Of a DNA stretch of 23,324 bases, positions 3 through 18,449 are shown in pieces. The notes beneath the pieces were generated by a model, which saw nothing but the letters and a program-made list of their open reading frames with translations, was not told the origin of the DNA and ran no database searches. Location of the stretch: positions 1 to 23,324 of the IMG/VR virus record IMGVR_UViG_3300021602_000153; one strand, 5' to 3'. Numbering within the stretch: position 1 is the stretch's first letter; the number at the start of each line of letters is the position of its first letter. The stretch is from a virus. Made by a program: the position numbers and the translations under genes.

Positions 3-1556
3 GGTGCGGTTAATACACTACCGGAGATTGATGGCGTCAATCGAAGACTACCGTTGGTGGTTAACGTTAACGGAATTCTTTACCCATCACTGGCCATGGA
101 AATATTACGTGTTGCTGCTGGTGATACTACATTCCAAGTTAAGCTAAGTGAACTGGGGGTGGATAAGATGCGTATCAAAAAGTTCGGCCCCATTACCACG
201 GACCACTTGGGTCGTATTTGGATTGATTGGAGTCAAAAACCTATTAACATTAGCATTATGGATTTACCTGAAAATCTAAATGGTGCCATTGTTATAGTTG
301 GGCCAGCCGCTGCTGGCATCAGTAATCCGGTGCCCACTGCGGTAGGCGCCCAGTTTCCACATTACGTGCAGGCAGTTGTAGCTGGTACTTTACTAAACAA
401 AATTAATATCACTCGCCCGGATTTTGCAGATGGTGCAGAAATCTTGACATTAGTGATACTGAGCGTTATACTATTATTACTATCGAGGTGGACTTATGTT
501 GGAATTCTTGCTAGCGTTATTGTGCTTGGGGGCTGTGTTTACGGCAGCAGTTATCTTTATGATAATTATCGTTGGCTTTTGGATATCACTGGCATCGTTG
601 CTGGTCTTGTTATTGTTCTTTTCCATGCTTATATCGTTAGGTTTGTAGGTGAGTTCCTACAAAAGCAACAGATTAAAAAACAATTCGGCAGTTATCTGTC
701 ACCAGACTTAGTAGCTAAGTTACAACGACAACCAGAATTATTACGTCTAGGTGGAGAAGAACAAGAACTTACAATTATATTTACTGACGTTCGTGGCTTT
801 ACTGCGATATCAGAACATTACGGACGTGATGTGCAGGGTCTTACTAAAATAATGAACCGTTACATGACTGCTATGACTAAGAAGATTTTAGAAAACAATG
901 GAACACTAGACAAATATATCGGAGATGCCCAGATGGCATTTTGGAACGCACCGCTTGATGACGTTAACCACGCTAAGAACGCAGTACGTACAGCATTGCA
1001 AATGATGGAAAGTTTAGATGAATTTAATAAAGAAGTTACAGCAGAAGGTGTTCCAGCTTTTGGTATGGGTTTGGGAATTAATACTGCCACCGTTGTGGTG
1101 GGCAACATGGGCAGTGATCAACGGTTTGACTATACTTGTCTTGGCGACGGTGTTAATTTGGCGTCAAGACTCGAGGGCCAGACTAAGCCGTACGGCGTCA
1201 AAATTATTCTCGGCCCAATAACAGCAGAGCAAGTTAAAGATGAATACTTTGTGCTTGAGCTAGATAAGATTGCGGTAAAGGGCAAGAAAGTTGGCGTTAA
1301 TATCTTCACTGTGCTTGACCTATATCCCGGTGCGCATGGTGAATATGAAATGGGGCGCGGAGATCATGAAGAAATGTTAACAGCATATCGCAATCGAGAA
1401 TTCGAACACGCTATATTTTTATGTGATAGTTTGATAGGCGAATTCGATGGACAGATGGATGCTTACTATGCAATGTGGAAAGATCGCTGTAAAGAAATGA
1501 AGCTGAGTAATCTGCCACACAATTGGGACGGCACATACGTATCAACAAGCAAATAA
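3..1556 (+). CDS. CHASE2-domain class III adenylate cyclase, 5' end outside window
   Basis: Membrane sensor enzyme predicted to make cAMP from ATP. The frame is open from base 3, and the residues before the TTG at 54 (GAVNTLPEIDGVNRR) continue a CHASE2 domain, so the true start lies upstream of the window. Order: end of the extracytoplasmic CHASE2 sensor, about three membrane segments (bases ~440-640), a short linker, then the cyclase domain. Counting from base 3, the metal-binding aspartates are D262 (FTDVRGFT) and D308 (KYIGDA). Adenine-selecting K304 and D376 are present, as are transition-state N385 and R389 (GDGVNLASR), so the domain looks active as an adenylate rather than guanylate cyclase. 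The last ~120 residues form a tail that recurs as a separate gene at 8290-8643. In bacteria CHASE2 cyclases often sit beside FecR-domain genes, and one lies at 5022-6140 here. The signal sensed is unknown. Confidence 0.9.
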   Translation, partial: GAVNTLPEIDGVNRRLPLVVNVNGILYPSLAMEILRVAAGDTTFQVKLSELGVDKMRIKKFGPITTDHLGRIWIDWSQKPINISIMDLPENLNGAIVIVGPAAAGISNPVPTAVGAQFPHYVQAVVAGTLLNKINITRPDFADGAEILTLVILSVILLLLSRWTYVGILASVIVLGGCVYGSSYLYDNYRWLLDITGIVAGLVIVLFHAYIVRFVGEFLQKQQIKKQFGSYLSPDLVAKLQRQPELLRLGGEEQELTIIFTDVRGFTAISEHYGRDVQGLTKIMNRYMTAMTKKILENNGTLDKYIGDAQMAFWNAPLDDVNHAKNAVRTALQMMESLDEFNKEVTAEGVPAFGMGLGINTATVVVGNMGSDQRFDYTCLGDGVNLASRLEGQTKPYGVKIILGPITAEQVKDEYFVLELDKIAVKGKKVGVNIFTVLDLYPGAHGEYEMGRGDHEEMLTAYRNREFEHAIFLCDSLIGEFDGQMDAYYAMWKDRCKEMKLSNLPHNWDGTYVSTSK

Positions 1557-1675: not shown

Positions 1676-2476
1676 ATGTCAGAAAAAAAGTACAGAACAA
1701 TTTTTATTTCCGACGTTCATCTAGGAACCAAAGACTGCAAAGCCAATCAATTAAATAATTTTCTTAAACACAATACATGCGATACGTTATACATGGTAGG
1801 TGATATAATTGACGCATGGAAAATTCAACAGAACAGATGGAAATGGAATCAAAGTCATAGTAATGTTATCCGTCGGGTACTTGGCCATGCTAAACGAAAT
1901 ACAAAAATAATTTACATAGCGGGTAATCATGATGAATTTCTTCGCCCCTTAATACCTTATGGCATTGGATTTGGAAGTATTGATATAGTAAATCAAGCAG
2001 AACACATGGGCATAGATGGAAAAAGATATCTAGTCACACACGGAGATTTATTTGATGGCATTACTAGATTAGCACCATGGATCAGTTTTTTAGGTGATAA
2101 GGCGTATGATACCGTACTTTCTCTTAATAGCAAATTCAATTGGATTCGACATCGCATGGGGTTTGGCTATTGGAGTCTTAGTCAATATCTTAAACGTCGA
2201 GTTAAACGAGCAGTAGACTTTATATTTCAATTTGAAAAGAACTTAGCTACATATTGCAAAAAACGTGGATATGATGGAGTGATATGCGGTCACATACATC
2301 ATGCAGAGATTAAAGAAATAGATGGTGTTACGTACATGAACGATGGGGACTGGGTAGAATCATGTACTGCACTAGTAGAACATCATGATGGCCGTTGGGA
2401 AATAATTACGTGGGTTCAGGAGAAAGATCATGTGGATATTACTACTGATAGCAGTACACATCAACAACCCGAATGA
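1676..2476 (+). CDS. LpxH-like calcineurin-type metallophosphoesterase
   Basis: Predicted two-metal phosphoesterase of the UDP-2,3-diacylglucosamine diphosphatase (LpxH-like) group, 266 aa. The metallophosphoesterase signature is complete and in order: ISDVHLG near residue 11, GDIIDAW near 42, GNHDE near 83, THGD near 120 and GHIHH near 202, giving all expected metal ligands. LpxH itself splits UDP-diacylglucosamine in lipid A synthesis. Proteins of this broader group are often encoded beside a family-4 glycosyltransferase, as here (2585-3592), which points to glycolipid or surface-sugar work rather than a confirmed LpxH reaction. ATG start; the preceding bases show only a weak ribosome site. 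The 3' end overlaps a small gene in another frame (2430-2603). Its substrate cannot be read from sequence. Confidence 0.8.
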   Translation: MSEKKYRTIFISDVHLGTKDCKANQLNNFLKHNTCDTLYMVGDIIDAWKIQQNRWKWNQSHSNVIRRVLGHAKRNTKIIYIAGNHDEFLRPLIPYGIGFGSIDIVNQAEHMGIDGKRYLVTHGDLFDGITRLAPWISFLGDKAYDTVLSLNSKFNWIRHRMGFGYWSLSQYLKRRVKRAVDFIFQFEKNLATYCKKRGYDGVICGHIHHAEIKEIDGVTYMNDGDWVESCTALVEHHDGRWEIITWVQEKDHVDITTDSSTHQQPE

Positions 2477-2603
2477 TGTACCAGCAAAGGTACACATTCC
2501 GTTCGAAAATCAAGCAGCATGTGAGTATGCTAAAACCAATATGACATATTGGATTAAATTTGAAAATTTTAAGGTAGTAGGCGAATGCAAAAAACAATCC
2601 TGA
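2430..2603 (+). CDS. Small hydrophobic-leader protein with two cysteines, 57 aa
   Basis: Unrecognised small gene overlapping its neighbours in a different frame. The protein begins MWILLLIAVHINN, a short hydrophobic stretch that could be a membrane anchor or signal, followed by a polar part with C31 and C53 (FENQAACEYAK and VVGECKKQS). A strong ribosome site, AGGAG, sits 7 bases before its ATG, inside the 3' end of the phosphoesterase gene. Its stop lies 19 bases inside the glycosyltransferase gene, so the three genes look translationally coupled. The layout of a hydrophobic start, an aromatic patch and two spaced cysteines resembles small proteins I know from aquatic phages, but I cannot name a family. 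It is short, and the evidence is the ribosome site plus exact filling of the gap between two genes. Confidence 0.6.
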   Translation: MWILLLIAVHINNPNDVPAKVHIPFENQAACEYAKTNMTYWIKFENFKVVGECKKQS

Positions 2604-3592
2604 TAGTAACAGATAATTTACCGGAGCAGATTAATGGCGTGGTTACGACCTACAAAAATATTGAGGCTTATGCGATTCGGGACAACTATCGTGTTGTATA
2701 TCTTGATCCCGGGCGGTTCCGCTATGTTGATTGCCCTGGCTACAACCAAGTCAAGATTGCCTTTCCGAGGAAGGTGGGCAAGATACTTGAGGAGATCAAT
2801 CCGGATCATATCCACATCGCCACGGAGGGTCCTGTTGGTTTGTGTGTTAGACAATATCTTGACAAACACAATTATAGGTACAATACTGCTTATCATACTA
2901 AGTTTCCGGAAGGACTTAGAAAACTTTTTGGAATACCTGAAGCCCTTACTTGGCCTTTAATAAGATGGTTTCATAAACATAGCGGTAAAGTATTGACCAC
3001 TACGGAAAGCATGGTAGAAGAATTACGAGCCCATGGATTTGATGGTGAACTAGTGTCTTGGACTCGTGGGGTTGATCGTGAGATTTTTAATCCAAGCAGA
3101 AGAATAAGGGCCAACGAACAAACAGTATTGGTGTGTGTTGCCAGGGTGAGTAAAGAAAAGAATCTTGAAGATTTCTTTAAATTGGACTTTCCTAATTGTC
3201 GTAAGATAATGGTGGGAGACGGGCCTATGTTGTCAACCTATAAGAAGCAATATCCCGAAGTAGAGTTTGTAGGTTTAAAAACAGGAGCAGAGTTGGCTGA
3301 ATACTATGCTAATGCTGATGTATTTGTATTTCCAAGTCAGTGGGAAACATTTGGTATTGTTATGATAGAAGCTATGGCATGTGGAACTCCTGTTGCTGCT
3401 TATCCATGCCAAGGTCCAAAAGATGTTATTGATCAAGGCATAACAGGCTACATGGATGAATCATTATCTACTGCTACATATCGTTGTCTAGGTTTGAGTA
3501 GGGATCGGGTAGCAGTAGGAAGTCAGCGTTGGAGCTGGGAATATGCCTGGGAAATATTTAGGGCACATCTTGTTCCTGCAAAAATGGACTAA
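2585..3592 (+). CDS. GT4-family glycosyltransferase
   Basis: Predicted retaining GT-B glycosyltransferase that moves a sugar from a nucleotide-sugar donor to a lipid or glycan acceptor. The N-terminal half opens with ILIVTDNLPEQINGVV, the acceptor-side loop typical of GT4 enzymes. The C-terminal half has the VCVARVSKEKNLE strand, the VGDGP turn and the donor-site signature ending in ETFGIVMIEAMACGTPVAA, which contains the E-x7-E pair. At 335 aa it is a little short for the family but both Rossmann halves are present. It follows the LpxH-like gene, a pairing seen in bacterial glycolipid clusters. Bases ~2700-2820 are visibly richer in G+C than the rest of the gene. The stop overlaps the end of the convergent gene at 3589 by 4 bases, so no terminator separates them. 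Confidence 0.85.
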   Translation: MQKTILIVTDNLPEQINGVVTTYKNIEAYAIRDNYRVVYLDPGRFRYVDCPGYNQVKIAFPRKVGKILEEINPDHIHIATEGPVGLCVRQYLDKHNYRYNTAYHTKFPEGLRKLFGIPEALTWPLIRWFHKHSGKVLTTTESMVEELRAHGFDGELVSWTRGVDREIFNPSRRIRANEQTVLVCVARVSKEKNLEDFFKLDFPNCRKIMVGDGPMLSTYKKQYPEVEFVGLKTGAELAEYYANADVFVFPSQWETFGIVMIEAMACGTPVAAYPCQGPKDVIDQGITGYMDESLSTATYRCLGLSRDRVAVGSQRWSWEYAWEIFRAHLVPAKMD

Positions 3593-3900
3593 CTACTACC
3601 ACCACTGTCTGCGCTGTCATTTTTCTTATTAATTACTTCTTCAGCTTCTACACGTTCTGCTTCAATAGTTTTGCCGCGTAGATGCAATACAGTATTGACC
3701 TTTTGGTTAAGTCTAATCAAATCATTATCCAACATACGTATACGGTCGATCAAAGCGATAAGAACTGTATTAGCATCCGAAATAACTGGCTTGATTTCTG
3801 ATGTAGCCCACGACCATACATATTTTATAATGGCACCTAATCCCACTGCCGCAACAATAGGGAATCCATACTTACTAATTAAATCTGCTATATTGTCCAT
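3589..3900 (-). CDS. Small holin-like membrane protein (paralogue of 4079-4360)
   Basis: A 103-aa protein with one N-terminal membrane segment (about residues 12-33, GFPIVAAVGLGAIIKYVWSW), then an amphipathic helix and a charged tail rich in Glu, Lys and Ser. It matches the 93-aa protein at 4079-4360 over its first ~75 residues: shared LIS..GFPI.AA start, then ALI/ALDxR, an xxMxxDxIRI/L pattern and a closing VxxxLxL. Short one-helix proteins of this layout are common in aquatic myoviruses, and some are called holins or holin-like. A role in inner-membrane permeabilisation or lysis timing is inferred, not shown. Its ATG overlaps the stop of the preceding 59-aa gene as TAATG. It is the last gene of a three-gene block. 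Confidence 0.75.
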   Translation of the reverse strand: MDNIADLISKYGFPIVAAVGLGAIIKYVWSWATSEIKPVISDANTVLIALIDRIRMLDNDLIRLNQKVNTVLHLRGKTIEAERVEAEEVINKKNDSADSGGSS

Positions 3901-4079
3901 TATTCATATCCTCTTACAAATTTTTCTATAGGGTCCAGTTTAACTAATTGTCGCTTGCCGTCAATGTCAGTAAACTTAAACAAGTCACCCTCTTTCCATC
4001 CTATTGTATGAACATCAAGTTCTTCGTCTAAGATAATTTTGTCGTCACTTAAATCCCAAGTGTAGTCATAGTATAACAT
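3900..4079 (-). CDS. Hypothetical 59-aa acidic protein
   Basis: Small gene between two holin-like genes, joined to both by one-base TAATG overlaps, which strongly supports it as real. The protein starts MLYYDYTWDLSDDKI and ends VKLDPIEKFVRGYE. It is acidic with several aromatic residues, has no membrane segment or cysteine, and its alternating pattern (GDLFKFTDIDGKRQLVKLD) suggests a small beta-barrel or beta-sandwich. I do not recognise the family. Its position suggests expression with, and possibly a partner role for, the flanking membrane proteins. Confidence 0.75.
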   Translation of the reverse strand: MLYYDYTWDLSDDKIILDEELDVHTIGWKEGDLFKFTDIDGKRQLVKLDPIEKFVRGYE

Positions 4080-4360
4080 TAGTCTCTCCTAGCGTCTGAC
4101 TTACCATCGGCACGAGCAATACGATCTACGTCTGGTTTTAATCCTAGCGCATTTGATACTACTGAGTCTATGCGTATAACATCGTGATTCATTGTCTTAA
4201 CACGATTGTCTAATGCTGTAATGATACCGGCCATGCCCTTAACAGCTGACAATACTCCGGCTAGTAATAGTTTTATAGTAAGATATACAAAGTATCCACC
4301 TGCTATAGCAGCAGCAATAGGGAATCCTAGGTCACTTATAAGTTTGAATATTTCATTCAT
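4079..4360 (-). CDS. Small holin-like membrane protein
   Basis: A 93-aa protein with a membrane-buried N-terminal part (residues ~12-45, GFPIAAAIAGGYFVYLTIKL onward) and a C-terminal amphipathic helix with the pattern ALDNRVKTMNHDVIRID, ending in a charged tail. It is a paralogue of the protein at 3589-3900. This arrangement is familiar from small proteins of marine and freshwater T4-like phages, sometimes grouped with holins, but no biochemical role is established from sequence. It is the first gene of a three-gene block. A ribosome site (AGGAA) lies just before the ATG, and a CTAAATA motif lies 28 bases upstream of it (4389-4395), matching a phage late-promoter geometry. Confidence 0.8.
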   Translation of the reverse strand: MNEIFKLISDLGFPIAAAIAGGYFVYLTIKLLLAGVLSAVKGMAGIITALDNRVKTMNHDVIRIDSVVSNALGLKPDVDRIARADGKSDARRD

Positions 4361-4401: not shown

Positions 4402-5025
4402 TTAATTCCTAACGTAACTGTAACTCCCACAAGTCGTGCATTGAATCGCCATCGATCCTGTATTCGCTTGCGTGGGGTTGGTTTGCTGTATTGTCACTGT
4501 AGCACCAGCTGTGCCATTTAATCCAAGAGAAAAACTTTTATCTCCAGATCCAGATTGCGTAGAGTTAATCGTATTGCCGCTGTTAACAGTACCAGATTGG
4601 CCTGTTATGTTTAATGTATGATTGCCGGTACCGGCTTGATTCGCAGTTATAGAATTTGCATTGCCCACTAGATTTTGTATTGATGTTGTATGATTGCCAA
4701 CTCCATCTTGAAATAGTATTACACTATTACTATATCCATTGGGTATCTCAACTGCGGCTTTTTTATCACCTGTGCCCTGCTGTGTAATTCTCACATAGTT
4801 GGCATCACTGCCAGCAGTAGTTCCGGTAGTGGGAAGGTTGGCATTTACCCAAGTTTCAGGGGGTAAGTTTGCACCTATCGCAATTCGAGCATAATGATTG
4901 CCATCTGATTGTGTAATGTTAATGGAGTTATTATCCCCCACTTGATCTATGTAGACATTGGGATTCCACTGAGTACTTTGTGCCCAGACGGTAAATGGAA
5001 ACAATAATAGTAAAAGTAATTTCAT
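4402..5025 (-). CDS. Secreted curlin-repeat (CsgA/CsgB-like) protein 2
   Basis: Predicted substrate of the CsgG pore that could assemble into extracellular amyloid. A signal peptide (MKLLLLLLFPFTVWA, cleavage after A15) is followed by YIDQVGDNNSINITQ and then imperfect curlin-type units built on Asn, Gln, Gly, Ser and Thr, such as ITQQGTGD, NQAGTGNHTLNITGQSG and STQSGSGDKS. These keep the Q-x-G-x-x-N spacing of curlin repeats. The C-terminus is unusual: CTTCG gives a CxxC pair at residues 196 and 199, then SYSYVRN. At 207 aa it is longer than E. coli CsgA (151 aa). The ATG overlaps the FecR stop as ATGA, so the two are coupled. Whether it acts as fibre subunit or nucleator cannot be decided; the distinct tail would fit a CsgB-like role. 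Confidence 0.8.
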   Translation of the reverse strand: MKLLLLLLFPFTVWAQSTQWNPNVYIDQVGDNNSINITQSDGNHYARIAIGANLPPETWVNANLPTTGTTAGSDANYVRITQQGTGDKKAAVEIPNGYSNSVILFQDGVGNHTTSIQNLVGNANSITANQAGTGNHTLNITGQSGTVNSGNTINSTQSGSGDKSFSLGLNGTAGATVTIQQTNPTQANTGSMAIQCTTCGSYSYVRN

Positions 5026-6140
5026 TTTTGCACAATATTAATAACTGTATTGCCACCTGAATTAATACGATTACGTATCTCAACTGATCCTTGTATTTGT
5101 GTTAACACACTATTTTGTCGAGTAGGGGTTGTCACACATTGTTTATTTCCGCCATCATCACGACATAGAGTGACAACGGGTTCGTCAAGTGCTACTGTAA
5201 CACCAGATGTAGGAACATAGTCTGGTAATAACTTAGGAGCACCTGATATAGGCTTTAATAAGTTAGCTGTTTGCGCTGATAATTGTGCGTTAACTATGTC
5301 CAATAAGTTAACTAAAAAATCTTGTTCCAATAAGTTTTGGCTGAGTCGGTCCTTGAACACTTCTGCTTGTGCTATATCAATAGCGTTGTTTAGTCCTTCT
5401 GCCTTGAGAAAATCTACATCTAATGCGCCTAACTTTAACGAACCCTTTGCATTTTTATCTTCTTGCAATTCTTTCGGAGGATTAACGATTAACATATTGC
5501 TAATTTGATCTTCTGTTAATTTAAGTATGACAGGAGGTCTAGGTTTAAAATCTCTACTGTCTACTTTGGTTGCTTGAAATGGTTTGTTCATTACGATAAA
5601 TCCTACTTCTGTAGTAACTGATATTTCGCCTGTCTTACAATCACGTTCTACGTCACGCCATCCAAATGGACAGCTTGGTAATAGAATAATAGTGCTTCGA
5701 CCAAACTCATCTACCGTGGCACTAAAATCTGTTCCACGAACACCAATGGTGGCAACCGGAGTATTAACTGACACTGATTGCGGATTGTTCTTGGCAATTT
5801 GCCCACTGGCATAACGTACTGTGCCGTGTGCTACATTAACAGCTAACTTACCACCCTTGGTAGTAGCAGGGTCATATACAAAGTCATCTATAACTAAACG
5901 ACTATTTTCGTTTACCAGTACCTTTGTATCATCATCAAAGGTTATTCCCACTTTGCCCTGGGTTGTCCGAACCGCATCTTCCATCTCCACTTTTGTCCCC
6001 TTCTTCCCTTCCAGATTTTCCTTCTTGCGTTGTATATTTGGAACTGTGTTGGTAGTTTCTGTGACTGTCCCTATCGCGGCGTCGGATTTCTGCGATGTAC
6101 TCACTAAGCAAACCAATAGTACGACCATCCATAATTTCAT
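5022..6140 (-). CDS. Secreted FecR-domain protein
   Basis: Predicted periplasmic or exported protein of 372 aa. A signal peptide (MKLWMVVLLVCLVSTSQKSDA) is followed by a FecR domain at about residues 55-140: VRTTQGKVGITFDDDTKV, then a beta-rich segment and the hallmark NTPVATIGVRGTDF. The rest is a long helical and then beta-rich C-terminal part with no family I know. The last residues, NSGGNTVINIVQK, look like half a curlin repeat. FecR proteins usually work as periplasmic partners in signalling, and in bacteria they often accompany CHASE2 cyclases; one is at 3-1556. I chose the ATG at 6140 over the GTG at 6143 because GGAGG sits 4 bases before the ATG and only 1 base before the GTG. Its stop overlaps the next curlin gene. 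Confidence 0.85.
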   Translation of the reverse strand: MKLWMVVLLVCLVSTSQKSDAAIGTVTETTNTVPNIQRKKENLEGKKGTKVEMEDAVRTTQGKVGITFDDDTKVLVNENSRLVIDDFVYDPATTKGGKLAVNVAHGTVRYASGQIAKNNPQSVSVNTPVATIGVRGTDFSATVDEFGRSTIILLPSCPFGWRDVERDCKTGEISVTTEVGFIVMNKPFQATKVDSRDFKPRPPVILKLTEDQISNMLIVNPPKELQEDKNAKGSLKLGALDVDFLKAEGLNNAIDIAQAEVFKDRLSQNLLEQDFLVNLLDIVNAQLSAQTANLLKPISGAPKLLPDYVPTSGVTVALDEPVVTLCRDDGGNKQCVTTPTRQNSVLTQIQGSVEIRNRINSGGNTVINIVQK

Positions 6141-6152
6141 CACTCCTCCGAC

Positions 6153-6944
6153 TTATCTTGTATTGCTATTAACGGTAAATGTATTAGTGCTACCAACAGA
6201 CTTAATGTTTATAATACTGTCTGAACTAGTGCCACCCTGTGTGATGCTGGTTGTATTGCCTGATCCATTATAGTCTAATTTAACAGAATGTCCATTAGTT
6301 GCACCACCGCTTTGTGTGATTCCGGTAGTATTACTAGCACCAACAGTAGTGATATCAACGGTACCCTTATCGCCAGTCATGTTAAGTGTTGTGCTATTGC
6401 CACCACCACCTGTTTGACTAATTGTAGTGAGTGTAGAGTTAGCGTTAACCGTGGCAATTAAACTATTGTTTGCCCCTCCCGAGGTAACAGCAGTAAGACT
6501 GTTCCCAGACCCTAACACGTTAACATTAGCATTGGCTGTGTTGCCAGTTTGATTAATACTGATATAATTGCTTTCGCTAACTCCAGATCCAGAATTATTA
6601 CTGTTAATGACAGCAGTGGCGTTGTTACCAGTTACACCGTATATAACGGTAGGATTATTCATGCCATTACCGGTAGTAGTTTTTACACCCAGGCTCAGCA
6701 TATTGCCACTACCAATTTGATTGATGGTAATTTGATTGTTGTCTCCATAGATAGTACTGGGAGTACTATTACCTGACCCTATTCCCTGTATACCACGGAC
6801 AACGTTGCCTGCGCCGTCTTGCGTTATATTGATGGTAGCGTTGTCTCCGCTTTGATCAATATAGATACTATTGTCGGCTGCGATTGATAAACTAGCAAAT
6901 CCGATTAGTAGTAATGCCAATATTTTTTTTATTATTGTTGTCAT
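6153..6944 (-). CDS. Secreted curlin-repeat (CsgA-like) protein 1
   Basis: Predicted main curli-like amyloid subunit, 263 aa. A signal peptide (cleavage near SIA/AD, residues 22-23) is followed by YIDQSGDNATINITQDG, nearly the same opening as the second curlin at 4402-5025. About ten imperfect repeats follow with the curlin pattern of Gln/Asn and Gly spaced by short beta strands: ITINQIGSGNML, ISINQTGNTANANV, TTISQTGGGGNSTTL, TGITQSGGATNGHSV and TSITQGGTSSDSIINI. The mature protein is almost all Gly, Ser, Thr, Asn, Ile and Val with very few charges, as expected of functional amyloids. It follows csgG by 27 bases, with a ribosome site (AAGGAAG) and a small hairpin in the gap. Confidence 0.85.
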   Translation of the reverse strand: MTTIIKKILALLLIGFASLSIAADNSIYIDQSGDNATINITQDGAGNVVRGIQGIGSGNSTPSTIYGDNNQITINQIGSGNMLSLGVKTTTGNGMNNPTVIYGVTGNNATAVINSNNSGSGVSESNYISINQTGNTANANVNVLGSGNSLTAVTSGGANNSLIATVNANSTLTTISQTGGGGNSTTLNMTGDKGTVDITTVGASNTTGITQSGGATNGHSVKLDYNGSGNTTSITQGGTSSDSIINIKSVGSTNTFTVNSNTR

Positions 6945-6955
6945 TATACTTCCTT

Positions 6956-6970
6956 AAGGGTTGTGCCCTT
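6956..6970 (-). repeat. Small hairpin between csgG and curlin 1
   Basis: AAGGG and CCCTT are perfect 5-base complements around a 5-base loop in the 27-base csgG-curlin gap, directly before the AAGGAAG ribosome site of the curlin gene. It could affect mRNA stability or raise translation of the curlin relative to CsgG. No T-run follows, so it is not a typical terminator. Confidence 0.3.
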
Positions 6971-6971
6971 G

Positions 6972-7766
6972 TTATTGGGTTGGAGTTTCCTTAAAATCCC
7001 AAACTCCTCTTCGTTGACCTTCTTTAATCAACTCCACTACCGATGCTTCTATAGTGGTTTTAACTGCCAATGTTCCCGGCTCGTTAATCGTTAGACCTGA
7101 TTCGGCCTCAAATGCTTGTGTTCCATTATCTAGAAACTTTAAGACGGCTATACTATCTGATGTGCTATATACTGTTTTAGTAACTGTTACTGCCATCAAT
7201 ACCTTACCTGTATTAACACTTATAGCCCGTAGACTTATAGTAACAATGTCTTTACTATATTGAGTTTGTGGTCCAATGCCTAACCACCTAAACGCAGATC
7301 CACCAGACTCAGTGCTACTATCATATCCTATAATTCCACCTTCTATCAGCATACCAGCAAACATTAATGGCATTAATGGTTTAGCTTCTTTACCTTCATA
7401 CGATTCTCTCATTTGTCGTATTAGCTGTCGTTCACGAGTAAGTCCATCCAATGCCACCCGTTCTACTACCTCAAACCATCTCCCATTTCCTACATCTTGT
7501 AGGGCTTTAATTAGGAATGTGACACCACCTTGTGTTACAGCATTACTTAAACTGGCAATACCAGGAGTGGGTTTACGTTGTCCAGTTTGGTCAGCGAATG
7601 CGTATACAGCCACGACAACAGGTCTTGGATTAGCAGGAGGTGATATTGTATCAAACTCTTTTTGCATTTTATTCACAGCTACCTCTGGTTTATATTCCTT
7701 TCCCATTTTCTGTGAAATAGCACAACCTGACAATAACATGACTAATAGTAAGGCTAATAATTTCAT
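6972..7766 (-). CDS. csgG: CsgG, outer-membrane curli secretion pore lipoprotein
   Basis: Predicted nonameric outer-membrane channel for export of curlin subunits (type VIII secretion). The lipoprotein signal ends in LLSGC, so C15 would be lipidated. Family landmarks align along the whole length with E. coli CsgG: VVVAVYAFADQTGQRKP, an NGRWFEVVER segment, RERQLIR, the IEGGIIGYDS strand, the GSAFRWLGIG hairpin, the TQY and VSLRAISVNTGKVL strands, and a C-terminal GQRRGVWDF. It has 264 residues against 277 in E. coli. At the constriction loop, E. coli KPYPASNF is replaced by KPTPGIASL, so the Tyr and Phe of the eyelet appear to be Thr and Leu. The start codon overlaps the CsgF stop as ATGA, as expected for stoichiometric pore partners. 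Confidence 0.95.
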   Translation of the reverse strand: MKLLALLLVMLLSGCAISQKMGKEYKPEVAVNKMQKEFDTISPPANPRPVVVAVYAFADQTGQRKPTPGIASLSNAVTQGGVTFLIKALQDVGNGRWFEVVERVALDGLTRERQLIRQMRESYEGKEAKPLMPLMFAGMLIEGGIIGYDSSTESGGSAFRWLGIGPQTQYSKDIVTISLRAISVNTGKVLMAVTVTKTVYSTSDSIAVLKFLDNGTQAFEAESGLTINEPGTLAVKTTIEASVVELIKEGQRRGVWDFKETPTQ

Positions 7767-8227
7767 GGGCTAGATACTGGAAATTGAAATGACCCTAGTG
7801 GTATAGTCACACTAGTAGTGTTGCCCGTAGTATCAGTAACCTGCATATTAATATTGCTACCATCTTTGCTCCAAAAGATACTGTTGCCCTCAAAGTTTAA
7901 TGTACCTTGATTTGTGCCGCCATTGGCAAACATAGCAGTGGCCAAGTTTTGACTAATCTGTGCGTAGATCCGACTTTCTAAATTATTAAGAAATTTGGCA
8001 ATATTAGTGCTCTGCTTGTCTGCCTTTTCTTTATCTAGGGCAGCTTGTATATCTTTCTTAACCTGAGCTTGACGAGTAAATTCTTGGTTCTCTATAGTCA
8101 GGACATGGGCACTATAGCCGTTTCCAGTAAAACTGGGTGACTTAAACTGATAGTCTGCTATCGGGGTCGCGACGGCTTGCAAGGAGATCGCGGTAAAACA
8201 TAGCAGAGTTGTAATTATTTTTATCAT
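7763..8227 (-). CDS. csgF: CsgF, curli secretion accessory protein
   Basis: Predicted exported partner of CsgG; in E. coli CsgF plugs into the CsgG barrel and places the nucleator at the cell surface. A signal peptide ends near AVA/TP (residue 20). The mature start YQFKSPSFTGNGYS matches the FQFRNPNFGGNP segment of E. coli CsgF, which enters the pore. A helix (FLNNLESRIYAQISQNLATAMF) and a beta end (SNINMQVTDTTGNTTSVTI, compare QLQLNVTDRKTGQTSTIQV) complete the fold. I chose the ATG at 8227, not 8317, because AGGAG lies 7 bases before it and the signal peptide starts exactly there; the longer version would add 30 residues unlike a leader. Length is 154 aa, close to the family's ~138. It overlaps csgG by 4 bases. 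Confidence 0.9.
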   Translation of the reverse strand: MIKIITTLLCFTAISLQAVATPIADYQFKSPSFTGNGYSAHVLTIENQEFTRQAQVKKDIQAALDKEKADKQSTNIAKFLNNLESRIYAQISQNLATAMFANGGTNQGTLNFEGNSIFWSKDGSNINMQVTDTTGNTTSVTIPLGSFQFPVSSP

Positions 8228-8289
8228 ACTCTCGCTCCTACAAGTATTTAACAAAAAATTACAACCAGTTAAGTTGTCACATAATATGT

Positions 8290-8643
8290 CTAACCCTTGG
8301 GTACAATGCCAGTCCAAGCGGTATCTGGTTCGGATTCGATATACCCAAGTATTCGTGTTCGTAACACTTCGTAGAATGAATCAATTTGTTTGCCCCAAGA
8401 ACCCATTAGGGTATCAATTGCTGTAATACAAAAATGCCAATTTCTTTTACGATAATTATCCATTAAATCTTGGTGTAACTTTGTATAAACTTCTACTTTG
8501 GCAAACTCCGTTAATGGTAAGTTTTCCACCACACTATATGCGGTAATGGGATTGCTACTACGTATGGTTACTGTATCTAGTTCAAGAACTATATATTTTT
8601 CTTGTAGTTTTGATACCTCAGCGGTGCCGAAAATTATATTCAA
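8290..8643 (-). CDS. Stand-alone cyclase C-terminal tail protein
   Basis: A 117-aa protein that aligns from end to end with the last ~120 residues of the CHASE2 cyclase at 3-1556 and lacks the catalytic part. Shared points: IIxG at the start, the YxVLELD strand (YIVLELDTV against YFVLELDKI), a YRxR motif in the middle, LxGxxxxQxDxxY, and a final helix before a Trp-containing end. The first residues match the beta strand that closes the cyclase fold, so this looks like a domain cut at a sensible boundary. It starts at TTG with AGGAG 7 bases before, so it looks actively translated rather than a dead fragment. It is the first gene of the curli operon. It may bind or compete with the cyclase tail or a shared partner; this is inference. 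Confidence 0.75.
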   Translation of the reverse strand: MNIIFGTAEVSKLQEKYIVLELDTVTIRSSNPITAYSVVENLPLTEFAKVEVYTKLHQDLMDNYRKRNWHFCITAIDTLMGSWGKQIDSFYEVLRTRILGYIESEPDTAWTGIVPKG

Positions 8644-8705: not shown

Positions 8706-9497
8706 ATGAATTTTAATTTTGACCTTATTAGTGATTTACATAGGGAAACCTGGCCTAATTTTGATTGGACCGGACAACCAACTGCACAGTATTGCATTGT
8801 AGCAGGTGATATCGCTAGAGATAGATCCCTTGTTGTAGATACTTTGAAACACCTTAGTGAAGTTTATACCGGGGTCTTTTATATTGACGGAAACGACGAG
8901 CATAAAGACCATGCGGAAAACTTGAATCGTAGCTACGCTGAATTAGCTGATCTTATTGGCCCTATGAAGAATGTGGTATATATGCAGGATAATGTGGTTG
9001 TTATGAACGGTGTCGCCATTTTGGCCACTAATGGATGGTGGAGTTATGACTTCGACCCTAACTTATCAGTAGACCAATCATTATTCTGGGTTCAACAGAA
9101 GGATGGAATTAGTCAGCAGGCTGCAATTAATATTAATGGAACAGCATATCGAGATGCAGGGTATTTGGTTAACAGCGTTTCTAAATTACAAACTTATAAT
9201 GATGTAAAATCTATAATTATCGTCACACATACAGTACCAACTCCAGAAATTATACAACATGATCTAGAACTAAAAGATACATGGCGATATAATTCCATGG
9301 GAAACAATTACGTAAATGCTGCTCTTGATTCAGATACTGAACGAAAAATTAAACTATGGTGTTTTGGCCATTATCATAGACCGGTAGATACAGTAATAGA
9401 TAGGGTTAGATATGTCAGTAATCCTCGCGGACGAGGAAATACTGAATATTCTCAATTTGCATACTACCCCAAAAGGATATCAGTTCCGGTTAATTAG
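8706..9497 (+). CDS. Calcineurin-like metallophosphoesterase
   Basis: Predicted cytosolic metal-dependent phosphoesterase of 263 aa; the substrate could be a nucleotide, nucleic acid or phosphoprotein. Signature motifs appear in order: LISDLHRE (residues ~7-14), VAGDIARD (~32-39), DGNDEHK (the GNH[DE] position, here GNDEH, near 60), VTHTVP (~178) and FGHYHRP (~222). The Asn-Asp-Glu-His order in the third motif is a slight departure from the usual Asn-His. It is unlike the LpxH-like enzyme at 1676-2476 and is not its copy. It stands alone on the plus strand, divergent from the curli operon and overlapping the end of clpS by 8 bases. A CTAAATA motif lies 30 bases upstream. Confidence 0.8.
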   Translation: MNFNFDLISDLHRETWPNFDWTGQPTAQYCIVAGDIARDRSLVVDTLKHLSEVYTGVFYIDGNDEHKDHAENLNRSYAELADLIGPMKNVVYMQDNVVVMNGVAILATNGWWSYDFDPNLSVDQSLFWVQQKDGISQQAAININGTAYRDAGYLVNSVSKLQTYNDVKSIIIVTHTVPTPEIIQHDLELKDTWRYNSMGNNYVNAALDSDTERKIKLWCFGHYHRPVDTVIDRVRYVSNPRGRGNTEYSQFAYYPKRISVPVN

Positions 9498-9798
9498 ATT
9501 CCGGTTCTATTTGAATCTTCAGTGGCATATTTACTGAACGTGCAGCCATTGAAACCTCAATTCCTTTTTGTTCTGCGATTTCATAAGGTAACACAGCTAC
9601 GACTGCGGAGCCGATTTCATGTATATCTTGTGTAATTTTTACAGCAGTATCTGGCGTATAATTAAAGAAGTTCATTAATGATTCAACTACGAATTCCATT
9701 GTTGTTCCGTCGTCATTTAAATAGATAACTTTAAACAGTGGAGGCTCTTTAATTTCCTGATTAACATCAGGTCTTGTGATTACATCTGCTTGTGACAT
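9490..9798 (-). CDS. clpS: ClpS, N-degron adaptor for Clp protease
   Basis: Predicted adaptor that delivers proteins with N-terminal Phe, Leu, Tyr or Trp to ClpAP. At 102 aa it matches the bacterial protein in length. The binding pocket is intact: N28-D29-D30 in VIYLNDDGTTMEF, gatekeeper M34, and H60 in DIHEIGSAVVAVL. The flexible N-terminal tail needed to engage ClpA is also present (residues 1-20). A working adaptor encoded by a phage would redirect the host's ClpAP, since no clpA or clpP is seen here. It is the last gene of the protein quality-control cluster (ClpX, bS21, Hsp20, ClpS), with its own leader carrying a TAAATA motif and a hairpin. Confidence 0.9.
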   Translation of the reverse strand: MSQADVITRPDVNQEIKEPPLFKVIYLNDDGTTMEFVVESLMNFFNYTPDTAVKITQDIHEIGSAVVAVLPYEIAEQKGIEVSMAARSVNMPLKIQIEPESN

Positions 9799-9818
9799 AC
9801 TAGTTCCTTAAGTTTAGC

Positions 9819-9838
9819 ACAGGGCGTAATTGCCCTGT
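9819..9838 (-). repeat. GC-rich hairpin in the clpS leader
   Basis: ACAGGGC and GCCCTGT form a perfect 7-base stem with a 6-base loop, lying between the end of hsp20 and the clpS ribosome site. It could end hsp20 transcripts or structure the clpS leader. No T-run follows on either strand. Confidence 0.4.
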
Positions 9839-9842
9839 ACTG

Positions 9843-9848
9843 TATTTA
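9843..9848 (-). promoter_or_regulatory. Candidate late promoter before clpS
   Basis: On the minus strand the sequence reads AGTAAATACAG, 44 bases upstream of the clpS ATG. It keeps the TAAATAC core of other candidate late promoters here but has AG rather than AC before it. Confidence 0.35.
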
Positions 9849-9858
9849 CTATATTTTA

Positions 9859-10305
9859 CTACGATTCGTATGCAATAAAAATAGTTTTAGGCTGAAGTGC
9901 TTCGGGAATATTACGCTCTAACCGTACAGTTAAAATGCCATTTTTCGACGATGCATTGGTTACTTCAACATAATCAGCTAGACTAAACGTGCGAACAAAA
10001 TTGCGAGCACTAATACCGTTATGCGAATATGTGTAACCTTCAGGAAGTTCTTTGTCCTGCCTTTTGCCAGTAACAATAAGAGTATTGTCCTTGACTTCAA
10101 CATTAACCTCACCCTCACTAAATCCAGCAGTGGCTACTTGAACTTCGAAAGTATCTAATCCGGTTTTAATAATGTTGTATGGGGGATAGTTAGTTCCTTC
10201 GTTACCGTGATGTTCAATTTGATTCAAAATACGACTGAATAATTGATCTACGCCGATAGCGTTGCGAGTGAATGGATTAAAATCCAAAGTGGTGATTTTT
10301 GTCAT
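9859..10305 (-). CDS. Hsp20 / IbpA-like small heat-shock protein
   Basis: Predicted ATP-independent holdase chaperone, 148 aa, with an alpha-crystallin domain at about residues 42-140. Diagnostic points: NYPPYNI before the domain, a central AGFSEGEVNVEV and LIVTGKR, the ISARNFVRTFSLADYVEV stretch shared with IbpA-type proteins, and the closing GILTVRLERNIPE. The C-terminal I-x-I-like motif needed for oligomer assembly is present (TIFIAYES). Small heat-shock proteins are common in T4-like phages of aquatic bacteria, where they may protect folding structural proteins. A good ribosome site (AAAGGAGAAAAC) precedes the ATG. A TAAATAC motif lies 65 bases upstream. Confidence 0.92.
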   Translation of the reverse strand: MTKITTLDFNPFTRNAIGVDQLFSRILNQIEHHGNEGTNYPPYNIIKTGLDTFEVQVATAGFSEGEVNVEVKDNTLIVTGKRQDKELPEGYTYSHNGISARNFVRTFSLADYVEVTNASSKNGILTVRLERNIPEALQPKTIFIAYES

Positions 10306-10370
10306 TGTTTTCTCCTTTAATTAAACGAAGTGACATTGTTAATAGGCCCAACCATCGGCACCTACAACAG

Positions 10371-10376
10371 TATTTA
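10371..10376 (-). promoter_or_regulatory. Candidate late promoter before hsp20
   Basis: On the minus strand ACAATAAATACTG sits 65 bases before the hsp20 ATG, in a 113-base gap that holds no gene. ATAAATA is the closest match in the window to the T4 late consensus TATAAATA. Confidence 0.45.
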
Positions 10377-10418
10377 TTGTACTATAAAATCATTAACTAC
10401 AAATATTATTTGGTAAAA

Positions 10419-10640
10419 TTAGTAGAATTTCTTGGGAAGTTCTTGGGCAGCTAGTCGCTTGCGTGAGCGTGATTTAGCTGCACCTTTCTTACGCTTACGT
10501 TCAGTGGTGGGTTTCTCATATGTTTCCCTGGCTCGTAGTTCGTCCAACAAGCCTGAGTCTTGTATTTTCTTTTTAAATTTCCTAAGTGCCTTTTCCACGT
10601 TTCCGTCATTGACAAATACTGTGTTTCCGTAAAGCTTCAT
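10419..10640 (-). CDS. rpsU: Ribosomal protein bS21
   Basis: Predicted small-subunit ribosomal protein of 73 aa, close to the 71 aa of E. coli bS21. The core [22 protein letters not shown] and [12 protein letters not shown] match the bacterial protein strongly, and the C-terminus is basic. bS21 sits near the anti-Shine-Dalgarno end of 16S rRNA and helps initiation. Phage-encoded bS21 is known from aquatic and very large phages and is thought to replace the host copy in ribosomes to favour phage messages. The ATG overlaps the ClpX stop as ATGA, so the two proteins are made from one message. Confidence 0.95.
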
Positions 10641-11827
10641 TCATTCTCCCTTGCGAGTGTTGCCGGAGTATTTACTAGTTTTGACGTAATTGCCACTGAT
10701 AGTATACTCTGTTTGCGATACTTAGGTAGGTCGAACATATGCGGTAATAGTATGCGTTCTAACTCTGTGTGCAGTCCACGAGCACCTGTTTTAGTTTTAA
10801 GAGTACGTTCTGCTATGAGATTTAGCGAATCTTTTTCAAAATTAAGTTCAACGCCATCTTGGTTAAACAACCACTTATATTGCCCAACGTAATTGTGTTT
10901 AACATCTGTCAATATGCTGATTAATTGGTCTTTGGTCAGACCTTGTAAATTTACTAAGTTACCAAACCTACCAACAAATTCCGGTATCATGCCATATTTG
11001 ACCAAATCATCTGGTGATGCCGCCATATTCTCCAGGGATTCTTCCTTGACAATATCAGCATTAAATCCCATGGTCGTTCCCTGCACTCTACTCTTTACAA
11101 TTTTATCAAGTCCAACAAATGCCCCACCGGAAATGAATAGGATATTAGTAGTATCAATCTCAACAGTGGTATCACCTCGTCGTATACCGGGAGGACTAAT
11201 CTTAACCTTGGTACCTTCGATTAATTTAAGCAAGGCCTGTTGCACACCTTCGCCAGATACGTCCCGGCTGACAGTAGCACTTTCGCTTTTGCGAGCAATT
11301 TTATCTATTTCATCTAAAAAGATAATACCGCGTTGTGTGCGCTCTACGTCCGAGTCAGCATTTTGGTATAATCTTAATATAACAGAGTCAACATCATCAC
11401 CGACATATCCCGCTTCGGTAAGGGTAGTTGCATCGGCTATGGCAAACGGTACGTTCAAATATTGTGATACAGTCTTTACCAACAGGGTTTTACCAGTCCC
11501 GGTGGGCCCAACCATTAATATATTTGCTTTGTCAATTTCGTTTTCAGTATTACTGATACGTTTATAGTGGTTGGTAATAGCCACTGCCAATACTATCTTA
11601 GCGCCGTCTTGACCCACTACGTATTGATCAAGATATTGTTTAATTTCACGGGGGTCTGGTATTTCCATTGTGGTGATGGATTTAGTTGTCCCTTGTTTAT
11701 TTTTTATTAGTTTACCGCAACGTTCGACGCAGTCGCTACAGATAGCAACGTTATCCTGCACGATAAAGGTAGTAACAGCATTCTTATGTTTATTACAGAA
11801 TGAGCAATGGTTAATTTTTTCCAACAC
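10637..11827 (-). CDS. clpX: ClpX, AAA+ unfoldase
   Basis: Predicted hexameric unfoldase, alone or with ClpP. Order: zinc-binding domain with C8, C11, C30 and C33; Walker A GPTGTGKT at 107-114; pore loop GYVG at 140-143; Walker B IIFLDEID at 168-175; pore-2 region [16 protein letters not shown]; and the sensor-2 region [13 protein letters not shown]. The ClpP-contact loop reads MGF at 253-255 in place of IGF, which should still bind ClpP. The RKH substrate loop of E. coli ClpX reads RRG here (~216-218), so tag choice may differ. The 396 aa are slightly fewer than in E. coli (424). Start is GTG at 11827 or TTG at 11824; AGGA lies just upstream. No clpP is seen, so it may pair with host ClpP. 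Confidence 0.95.
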
Positions 11828-17489: not shown

Positions 17490-18449
17490 TTAACTGGTTG
17501 GGGGCAGAGGGTACGGATACTGTGATGGCGTCAATGCAGCCATCGGTGGAGGTGGATTTGGGTCCACAGGCACGTTACTGGTAGTGGCAATCCCAGTTGC
17601 ATTGATATTAGTTTGTCCTTGACGTAATGCAGCTACTAGTGATTGCCCACCTAGAGTCGTTAAGTCCGCTACCGATTCAAGATATTGAAAAGAACTATTT
17701 GCTGATGTATCTTGCCCGTAGGTTGGTATCGAGATTACAAAACTGTAGATGGCTGGATTACTATTGGGTAATAGATTAGCAAATTGCACACTTGCACTTT
17801 CTTGAATGGTTTTCTCAGAATTTAATTGAGTCATCATATTGTTCCAGTTTGTATTTAAGTTGGCTGTTTGACTGGGGTAAGTAGTGATCAATGCGGGGAT
17901 AACATTTGAGTTGACCGACGGAATAAGACCATTACCACCTGCACTATTACTGGTCATGTTGGCCATCTGTCCGGAAAATGCGGCGTTGATATTATCATAT
18001 GTTCCCGCAGCCGGTCCAGTAGCAATTATAATTGGACCTTCCGGAGGACCATATGTACCACTGGCAGTGGCCTGCATATCATTGTAGATGCTGACCAAGT
18101 CAGACAAGTTCATGGAGTTAATCAGTGTAATAGTATTGGCTATAGCATTGGCAACTACTACCCCAGCAGCTATTCCCATGGAGTCATTAATAGTGATAGT
18201 CCCGCTAGGTCCTGATCCTGATCCCAAAGTATTAACAAGGCTATTGGCCACTGCTGGATCAACAGCCGATGTTTGTGCATTTACCAGTGGCAATCCAAAA
18301 TTTGTTTGTACATTGCTAACGGCATTGGCTAATCTAGGTAAATTTAACGAAGATATATTTGTTACCTGCTGTAGTGCAACCGACAAGGCCTTATTGGCCA
18401 ACGCTTGGTCCGGGGGAATTATTTGACTTAACCGATCTAATGCTGTCAT
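17490..18449 (-). CDS. Probable phage structural protein, 319 aa
   Basis: Unrecognised protein, very rich in Ala, Asn, Ser, Thr and Pro with few charged residues and no cysteine. It starts with an amphipathic helical part (MTALDRLSQIIPPDQALANK), has Gly/Ser-rich and Pro-rich loops (GSGSGPSG, GPPEGP) and ends in a proline-rich tail (DPNPPPPMAALTPSQYPYPLPP). The composition and its place behind a PAAR gene suggest a tail-tip, baseplate or fibre component. It overlaps the 332-aa gene by 4 bases (ATGA). Part of the evidence is composition only. Confidence 0.6.
   Translation of the reverse strand: MTALDRLSQIIPPDQALANKALSVALQQVTNISSLNLPRLANAVSNVQTNFGLPLVNAQTSAVDPAVANSLVNTLGSGSGPSGTITINDSMGIAAGVVVANAIANTITLINSMNLSDLVSIYNDMQATASGTYGPPEGPIIIATGPAAGTYDNINAAFSGQMANMTSNSAGGNGLIPSVNSNVIPALITTYPSQTANLNTNWNNMMTQLNSEKTIQESASVQFANLLPNSNPAIYSFVISIPTYGQDTSANSSFQYLESVADLTTLGGQSLVAALRQGQTNINATGIATTSNVPVDPNPPPPMAALTPSQYPYPLPPTS

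Follow-up and report, generated by a model that had tools for sequence, protein, structure and literature searches.

Why would a phage carry the genes of the curli (type VIII) secretion system (T8SS)? Phage curli were reported between 2020 and 2022 without an agreed function, and one isolate paper argued for missing substrates and a pore with a role in lysis. We approached this question through the IMG/VR record IMGVR_UViG_3300021602_000153, a stretch of 23,324 nucleotides that is referred to here as the window. By homology, the window encodes a CsgG/CsgF channel, two curlin-repeat substrates (Cur1 and Cur2), a FecR-domain protein, an adenylate cyclase with a CHASE2 domain and a pair of small membrane proteins. 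We propose that these genes probably constitute a phage-encoded surface-fibre cassette with cyclic AMP (cAMP) signalling, the purpose of which would be a changed adhesive cell surface rather than lysis or import. In the comparison presented below the curlin substrates are recovered, some of them carry binding-type heads, and the same signalling genes also occur together with another exporter; the question of what phage curli are for becomes directly testable.

The core of this finding is not new, since a module of CsgF, CsgG, CsgA/B repeats, FecR and adenylate cyclase has been published for pelagiphage podo- and myoviruses (PMC9599517). Sibling capture has been proposed in a paper that reported CsgF/CsgG together with hypothetical genes (PMC7029224), and the paper on phage Melnitz reported csgA and csgB as missing and put forward a role of the pore in lysis (PMC9004378).

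The curli cassette and its phage setting

The cassette is a minus-strand run from position 8227 to 3589 in the order csgF, csgG, cur1, fecR and cur2, followed by three small genes (4360-3589). The spacing is tight: csgF (7763-8227, with its ATG at 8227) overlaps csgG (6972-7766) by 4 nt, gaps of 27 nt and 9 nt separate csgG from cur1 (6153-6944) and cur1 from fecR (5022-6143, with a GTG start), and fecR overlaps cur2 (4402-5025) by 4 nt. Each named family of the run is backed by Pfam, with E 1.1e-14 for CsgF (model positions 5-132 of 132), E 6.9e-44 for the outer-membrane lipoprotein channel CsgG and E 2.1e-10 for FecR, which also matches phrog_37870 (E 8.5e-136). The curlin repeat model (Curlin_rpt) scores 22.7 bits in Cur1 (263 residues) and 22.1 bits in Cur2 (207 residues), both barely over its curated cut-off of 20.7 bits. 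An earlier reading made from the sequence alone (the sequence-only reading) had described CsgF, CsgG and two curlin-repeat proteins in one tight minus-strand operon; Pfam and the spacing of -4 to 27 nt confirm this, including both curlin assignments. Its gene content was right for the four curli genes and incomplete in that the FecR gene, the CHASE2 cyclase and the membrane pair had been overlooked.

Conservation was assessed in the best 80 of 144 viral matches to CsgG, which together with the window and two isolates gave 83 loci in 46 clusters at 95%. The order csgF-csgG-cur1 is found in 45/46 clusters, the exception (L047) starting after csgF, and a FecR open reading frame (ORF) follows in 45/46, the exception holding 848 b beyond csgG; 44 of these 45 curli-linked ORFs are recognised as FecR by Pfam. 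L011 and L069 have no room for Cur2, and in L006 csgF is split into two ORFs. The cassette is carried by the phage records of HTVC008M and four Melnitz strains. The sequence-only reading had seen a phage-borne export unit that brings its own CsgF and substrates, and had suggested a check of whether CsgF and curlin genes lie beside CsgG in other large phages; the gene order across clusters supports such a unit, which was already in print for pelagiphages (PMC9599517). The candidate account in which the phage carries CsgG alone was rejected. A CsgG match of 39% identity was also seen in OR851715.1 (Salmonella phage S.Kent 1-2-1; 1,499 b, unannotated), which may be host DNA.

Residues 2-260 of the window CsgG align with solved CsgG (PDB 3x2r group, which includes 6l7a; E 1.7e-45), and the CsgG lipobox LSGC and the signal peptides of the cassette were read by eye. 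In E. coli, the constriction ring of CsgG consists of Tyr66, Asn70 and Phe71, and the N-terminal 27 residues of CsgF sit inside the CsgG lumen, with Phe26, Phe31 and Leu42 among the contacts and Asn36 at the ring (PMC7304575). When alignments were read, the three CsgG ring positions corresponded to Thr/Ser, Ser/Gln and Leu in three phages, substitutions which may widen the pore. A CsgF profile of 19 rows, one of them from L086, matches the signal peptide and mature N-terminus of E. coli CsgF (sequence E 0.0014, aligned stretch E 0.012), and in this alignment, numbered by hand, Phe26, Phe31 and Leu42 are conserved positions, unlike Asn36. The N-terminal channel-lining motif is present in 44/46 CsgF ORFs, the two misses being fragments. 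The conservation of this pore-binding stretch speaks against the independent evolution or inversion of CsgF suggested in PMC9004378. As in the sequence-only reading, CsgE was not recognised: it was found in 0/11 large related records, some of which are perhaps incomplete, and was detected in the E. coli positive control. CsgE may be supplied by the host, and it has been stated to be non-essential for curli (PMC7029224). CsgC and CsgD are reported as absent in pelagiphages (PMC9599517).

Both substrates contain more curlin-type motifs than expected from 300 shuffles of each protein. In Cur1, QxGxx[ND] occurs twice against 0.2 expected (6/300 shuffles reach this count) and N-x-hydrophobic-x-hydrophobic-x-Q five times against 0.24 (0/300); the corresponding counts in Cur2 are six against 0.24 and four against 0.32 (0/300 for each). 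Curlin_rpt was detected at E <=0.01 in 25/46 Cur1 candidates and 25/38 Cur2 candidates, the latter set including truncated ORFs and one unrelated ORF (L079). The curlin proteins of Melnitz and HTVC008M pass Pfam, except the first one of HTVC008M. The possibility that the substrates are absent was rejected, since curlin-repeat proteins pass Pfam. An AlphaFold2 model of Cur1 consists mainly of strands after the signal helix (mean predicted local confidence, pLDDT, 79.4).

Cur2 often bears a predicted N-terminal head, PA14 or F5/8C in some, and this is new within the literature searched; the main texts of the phage-curli papers PMC7029224, PMC9004378 and PMC9599517 make no mention of PA14. PA14 was found in 4/38 and F5/8C in 2/38 Cur2 candidates. 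Direct scans gave PA14 together with curlin repeats in HTVC008M and L027 and F5/8C with curlin in L046; the curlin match was below cut-off in the PA14 protein of L005, and none was obtained for the F5/8C protein of L006. Several other Cur2 proteins carry a head without a family name, of which that of L047 was modelled poorly (mean pLDDT 63.1). A fold search with the L047 Cur2 model gave no match at E <=0.001, and the IFT52-type hits for its head had E 0.5 and worse, among many others. The PA14 and F5/8C heads, as domain matches, suggest binding rather than cover. A C..C..Q end cap, a pattern chosen after viewing the sequences, is present in 29/32 complete Cur2 ORFs (L079 excluded); the window Cur2 does not fit it.

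The signalling part of the cassette begins with the CHASE2 class III adenylate cyclase (3-1556, plus strand; Pfam Guanylate_cyc E 3.9e-19, CHASE2 E 2.5e-15). Its 5' end is cut by the contig start, and in a near-identical record the protein has 683 residues. A cyclase was found in 31/46 clusters, the window included, and is present in every one of the 23 clusters that extend 8.7 kb or more beyond csgG; L040 (6.1 kb) and L009 (4.4 kb) have none in the stretch at hand, and in L079 it lies ahead of csgF on the opposite strand. In the window cyclase the positions of the metal Asp pair, Lys, Thr, Asn and Arg are intact, and the metal Asp pair, Lys and Arg are kept in all 28 rows (of 32) that cover them. 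In L037 (12598-14951), as in L036, L038 and L045 (contigs up to 221 kb), Cur2 is followed by a small gene and a 664-residue exported-looking protein, and the cyclase is distant. Adjoining the window cyclase at 1676-3592 are genes for a calcineurin-like phosphoesterase (LpxH-like by eye) and a group 1 glycosyltransferase, for which surface remodelling is possible.

The membrane pair (4079-4360 and 3589-3900, minus strand) belongs to phrog_18771, with E 3.7e-31 for the first protein and 3.6e-28 for the second, which has one transmembrane segment and a coiled coil by eye. Between them, overlapping each by 1 nt, is a 59-residue ORF (3900-4079, minus strand) without a family match. The pair also matches the holin family phrog_4898 weakly at the N-terminus (E 1e-4 for 3589-3900 and 1.6e-3 for its partner). 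Its presence in the locus of 38/46 clusters is new within the literature searched: in 32 clusters it precedes csgG, at <=1.5 kb and on the same strand, and in six, the window included, it lies downstream; two of the eight clusters without it have an upstream stretch of <300 b. At E <=0.01 the family was found in only six of 50,697 phage records, those of HTVC008M and Melnitz. The best 80 matches of a viral scan for the family, a set biased towards the window's lineage, yielded 48 loci with wide flanks, of which 47 have the cyclase and 39 have CsgG (36 and 30 of 36 clusters); in seven of the nine without CsgG, a gene for a curlin or for FecR is seen close to the end of the sequence at hand. The pair may be the histidine kinase genes, one or two of which are said to precede csgF in pelagiphages (PMC9599517).

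That the cassette belongs to a phage is indicated by record G001 (157 kb), which is collinear with the window at 92-94% identity and encodes a gp23 T4-type major capsid protein (PF07068, E 3.2e-98). With respect to the capsid gene the sequence-only reading is thus upheld through G001, and the window itself contains no capsid gene. An origin in a bacterial chromosome was rejected on the grounds of the IMG/VR record and this collinearity. The G001 capsid protein matches 2,481 of the 50,697 phage records, and the 20 matches listed (62-67% identity) are to large phages, namely Vibrio 2.275.O, Sinorhizobium Phosso, the Pseudomonas PA5oct group, Serratia BF and Erwinia relatives, with no pelagimyophages among those 20. 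Furthermore, gp23 was found in 9/11 further large contigs of 158-372 kb, picked from 80 with the window's membrane-protein family. The curli module therefore sits in a jumbo-type T4 lineage, which is new within the literature searched. A megablast of the whole window against the same phage records gave no match.

At the head of the operon lies an ORF (8290-8643, minus strand) that the sequence-only reading had placed within the curli feature; it does not belong to the curli genes, and its sequence aligns with the C-terminal end of the cyclase (29 bits against the profile of that enzyme). It has no Pfam family above cut-off, no PHROG match and no kinase family, and may be a partial duplicate of the cyclase or a stand-alone domain. 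A counterpart (L004:8121-8474) stands at the head of the curli operon in the near-identical record. Other phage-type genes in the window encode NrdB, ClpX and DNA ligase, and there is a PAAR match below its cut-off. Genes for a phage-type ClpS-like protein (PHROG 'ATP-dependent protease'), Hsp20 and ribosomal protein S21 (9490-10640) adjoin ClpX (10637-11827), and adjacent proteins of 319 and 332 residues without a Pfam family (17490-19444), perhaps structural, lie ahead of the PAAR-like gene.

The FecR tail and a second exporter

The C-terminal tails of the FecR proteins were compared by motif, with patterns picked after viewing the tails. The strict motif, N-x-hydrophobic-x-hydrophobic-x-Q within the last 30 residues, is present in 36/41 complete curli-linked FecR proteins (1.85 expected by shuffling) and in 1/81 other bacterial FecR proteins used as a control. 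A relaxed motif is present in 39/41 curli-linked proteins, including that of the window (tail ...GGNTVINIVQK), and in 41/52 of the membrane-pair set, compared with 14/81 other bacterial FecR and 0/8 giant FecR proteins (see below); in the printed tails of the membrane-pair set the spacing between N and Q is often longer by one residue. Cur1 and Cur2 are likewise enriched in the strict unit. By sequence, then, curli-linked FecR proteins end in a curlin-like strand, and this is new within the literature searched.

In other loci the signalling genes stand beside a different exporter. L090, a contig of a Rickettsiales metagenome-assembled genome (MAG), encodes a 1317-residue FecR protein, OEP, HlyD, a CHASE2 cyclase and the membrane pair. 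A viral scan with the L090 cyclase gave 302 matches, and among the best 80 the membrane pair follows the cyclase within 2.5 kb in 68/80 loci (42/47 clusters at 95%). An HlyD-type gene precedes the cyclase in 24 of the 31 loci with at least 1 kb upstream (20/25 clusters), and the other seven have CsgG or a Cur2-like gene in this place. Nine loci have at least 6 kb upstream; eight of these hold a giant FecR gene with OEP-, ABC-like and HlyD-type genes, and the ninth holds the curli cassette. Since L266, L267 and L304 share coordinates, the eight amount to about six distinct loci. OEP and HlyD were identified by Pfam in L090 only, the labels elsewhere being given by similarity to the L090 proteins. 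OEP/HlyD-type genes were found in 0/48 of the wide-flank loci from the membrane-pair scan (best 80).

Six viral giant FecR proteins were scanned at E <=0.01, and FecR was found in 6/6, cadherin in 5/6 (not L288) and RTX in 3/6 (one below cut-off); the L090 protein has FecR without cadherin. The RTX motif GGxGxD occurs 0 or 1 times in each of eight giant FecR proteins, so that the RTX assignment comes from Pfam alone. At E <=1e-5, the FecR part of L266 matches, among phage records, only the curli-linked FecR of HTVC008M and Melnitz. The ABC-like membrane protein (250 residues) has no Pfam family, no ATPase part and a weak PDB match (E 0.074), and a working type I system is therefore not demonstrated. 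In six OEP/HlyD-type contigs no gp23, terminase or T4 portal was found, in searches in which gp23 and portal found no control genome either (gp23 being detectable elsewhere). The viral nature of these contigs consequently rests on the IMG/VR label, one L304 protein and a reading of ORFs by eye (L304, its record and L306). Of the 39 phage records that the L304 protein matches, 37 are cyanophages by name, and identity is 25-26% in the eight matches listed.

From this gene content, the same set of FecR, cyclase and membrane pair accompanies TolC/HlyD-type genes and a giant FecR protein in other viral contigs. This is new within the literature searched, the open-licence part of which yielded no FecR-cyclase-pair set with an OEP/HlyD exporter. 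L262 has both exporters, the OEP/HlyD-type locus and the curli cassette, each with its own CHASE2 cyclase. In L321 and L325 two cyclases lie beside the curli cassette, and both contigs start within the first cyclase.

What the cassette may do in the infected cell

We propose the following sequence of events. During infection the host Sec pathway would export the curlin subunits, and CsgG, with CsgF in its mouth, would pass them without CsgE to the surface of the infected cell, where they would assemble into amyloid. Cur1 would form the fibre and Cur2 would be a variable display subunit. FecR would join the curlin assembly via its curlin-like last strand, which we propose because in the sister loci a direct fusion joins FecR to a large protein that is probably exported. 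It could then report the state of export or of the fibre to the CHASE2 domain of the cyclase outside the cytoplasm, and this enzyme would make cAMP in the infected cell. The resulting adhesion might serve host capture, the exclusion of rivals or the holding of progeny. More tentatively, and with somewhat less than even confidence, we suggest that several large aquatic phage lineages share a signalling chassis of FecR, CHASE2 cyclase and membrane pair on exchangeable fibre exporters, either curli, whose FecR has the curlin-like tail, or a TolC/HlyD-type set, whose FecR is part of a giant protein that often bears cadherin domains; with FecR tied to the fibre in both, the phage would sense the fibre and set cAMP, in an adhesion programme with feedback.

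The timing of the cassette bears on these proposals. The core of the T4-like late promoter is given as TATAAAT (PMC9004378), and TATAAATA occurs <=150 nt from the first membrane gene in 15/32 representatives and from csgF in 15/44 (1.3 expected each). At internal starts it was found in 1/205 cases (cur1 0/46, fecR 0/45, cur2 1/38, cyclase 0/30, csgG 0/46) and at other ORFs in 27/475. These sites suggest a late timing of the cassette in many relatives.

A number of observations weigh against an adhesive fibre with cAMP signalling. Clumping, which the sequence-only reading had named among the possible effects together with superinfection blocking and a changed permeability, was not seen in cultures of Melnitz (PMC9004378), which has the cassette, and the window contains no TATAAATA site. 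With regard to the substrates, 21/46 Cur1 candidates miss E 0.01 for the curlin model, and the fold search with the Cur1 model gave 0/148 matches at E <=0.001. The window CsgF alone finds no CsgF among solved structures, the profile alone doing so. The window FecR tail has the relaxed motif and not the strict one, which is present in 15/52 FecR proteins of the membrane-pair set, itself biased to the window's lineage. The window cyclase and the cassette are on opposite strands (plus and minus) and convergent, and the catalytic Asn is replaced by Ser in 7/28 covered cyclases, including that of Melnitz (L003:12484-14535); such cyclases may be altered or dead.

Of the other explanations, the one that survives best is that the fibre coat is mainly a superinfection barrier against other phages and not an aid to host capture, a suggestion made in PMC9599517. 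It is equally surface-directed, and the glycosyltransferase and phosphoesterase beside the cyclase would fit surface remodelling. However, the PA14 and F5/8C heads on some Cur2 proteins and the cadherin domains on most of the scanned sister proteins suggest binding, and late expression would protect only briefly. Neither point is decisive, and we regard a mainly protective coat as unlikely, with perhaps one chance in several.

Much less probable is the published idea that CsgG has been repurposed as a pinholin or secretin for the timing of lysis, the curlin-like genes being incidental, which was proposed for Melnitz from an AlphaFold2 model and gene position (PMC9004378). The weak holin match at the N-terminus of the adjacent membrane pair and the late-promoter-like sites ahead of the cassette in many relatives are compatible with such a role. 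Its premise that csgA and csgB are missing fails, however, since the Melnitz record annotates two curlin-repeat proteins and both pass Pfam. Moreover, the conserved part of CsgF is the stretch inside the CsgG lumen, and CsgG aligns over its full length with an outer-membrane channel and has a lipoprotein signal by eye, unlike a small inner-membrane holin. In the sister loci, OEP- and HlyD-type genes and giant FecR stand where the curli genes stand, and this exchange of exporters favours a surface fibre or adhesin and argues against a CsgG pinholin.

It also seems highly improbable that CsgG and CsgF form an open outer-membrane pore for nutrient uptake during infection, as considered in PMC7029224 and PMC9599517. 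The CsgE plug, not found in any of the 11 records, and the constriction-ring substitutions in three phages, which may widen the pore, would suit it, but the two curlin proteins, FecR, the cyclase and the exchange for an OEP/HlyD-type exporter would be left unexplained. Finally, a stalled remnant of a bacterial operon without present function, to which the cyclase fragment at 8290-8643 and the split csgF of L006 might point, can be given almost no weight against a csgF-csgG-cur1 order kept in 45/46 clusters, FecR recognisable in 44/45 and catalytic residues largely kept.

Comparison with cellular and viral relatives

FecR and cyclase have been said not to occur in bacterial curli operons (PMC9599517). 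Two Caulobacteraceae MAG contigs (L086:7083-13103 and L087:7037-13094) are exceptions to this statement, with csgF, csgG, two curlin-like genes, FecR and CHASE2 cyclase in one run. The neighbours are chromosomal in both (methylmalonyl-CoA mutase and acyl-CoA dehydrogenase in L086, a TonB receptor in L087); the curlin-like proteins of L086 miss the Pfam curlin model at E 0.01. Unlike the window, this operon is cellular, and the membrane-pair family was not found in the L086 and L087 stretches. Such operons are rare in the samples examined: the L086 FecR was found in 2/149 genomes sampled from its family, namely the two from which the search had started, and CsgG at E <=1e-20 in 6/385 genomes of the class, one being L086's own, with no FecR or cyclase found by profiles within the 16-17 kb read in the other five. 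All or part of the cassette is present in the further MAG contigs L084, L085, L088, L089 and L155, of which the first four also hold the membrane-pair family and are probably phage DNA.

Among the closest known systems is the pelagiphage T8SS module of HTVC008M and Melnitz, which has the csgF-csgG-curlin-FecR-curlin-cyclase arrangement in common with the window and to both of which the window CsgG is 44% and FecR 40% identical. The window differs from it in that the cyclase is on the opposite strand, the pair lies downstream rather than upstream and a cyclase fragment stands at the operon head, and in that the capsid of the near-identical record is nearest, among the 20 matches listed, to large phages of other hosts. 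With E. coli curli the window has in common the CsgG family, the CsgF N-terminus, the curlin repeats and the lipoprotein signal (by eye), and it departs from that system by the CsgE not found, the constriction-ring substitutions and the addition of FecR and a CHASE2 cyclase. The viral loci L266, L278, L285, L288, L301 and L306 and the MAG contig L090 resemble the window in the FecR domain, the CHASE2 cyclase and the membrane pair (not in L285), and are unlike it in having an OEP/HlyD-type export set, an ABC-like membrane protein and FecR fused to a protein of 1000-1700 residues.

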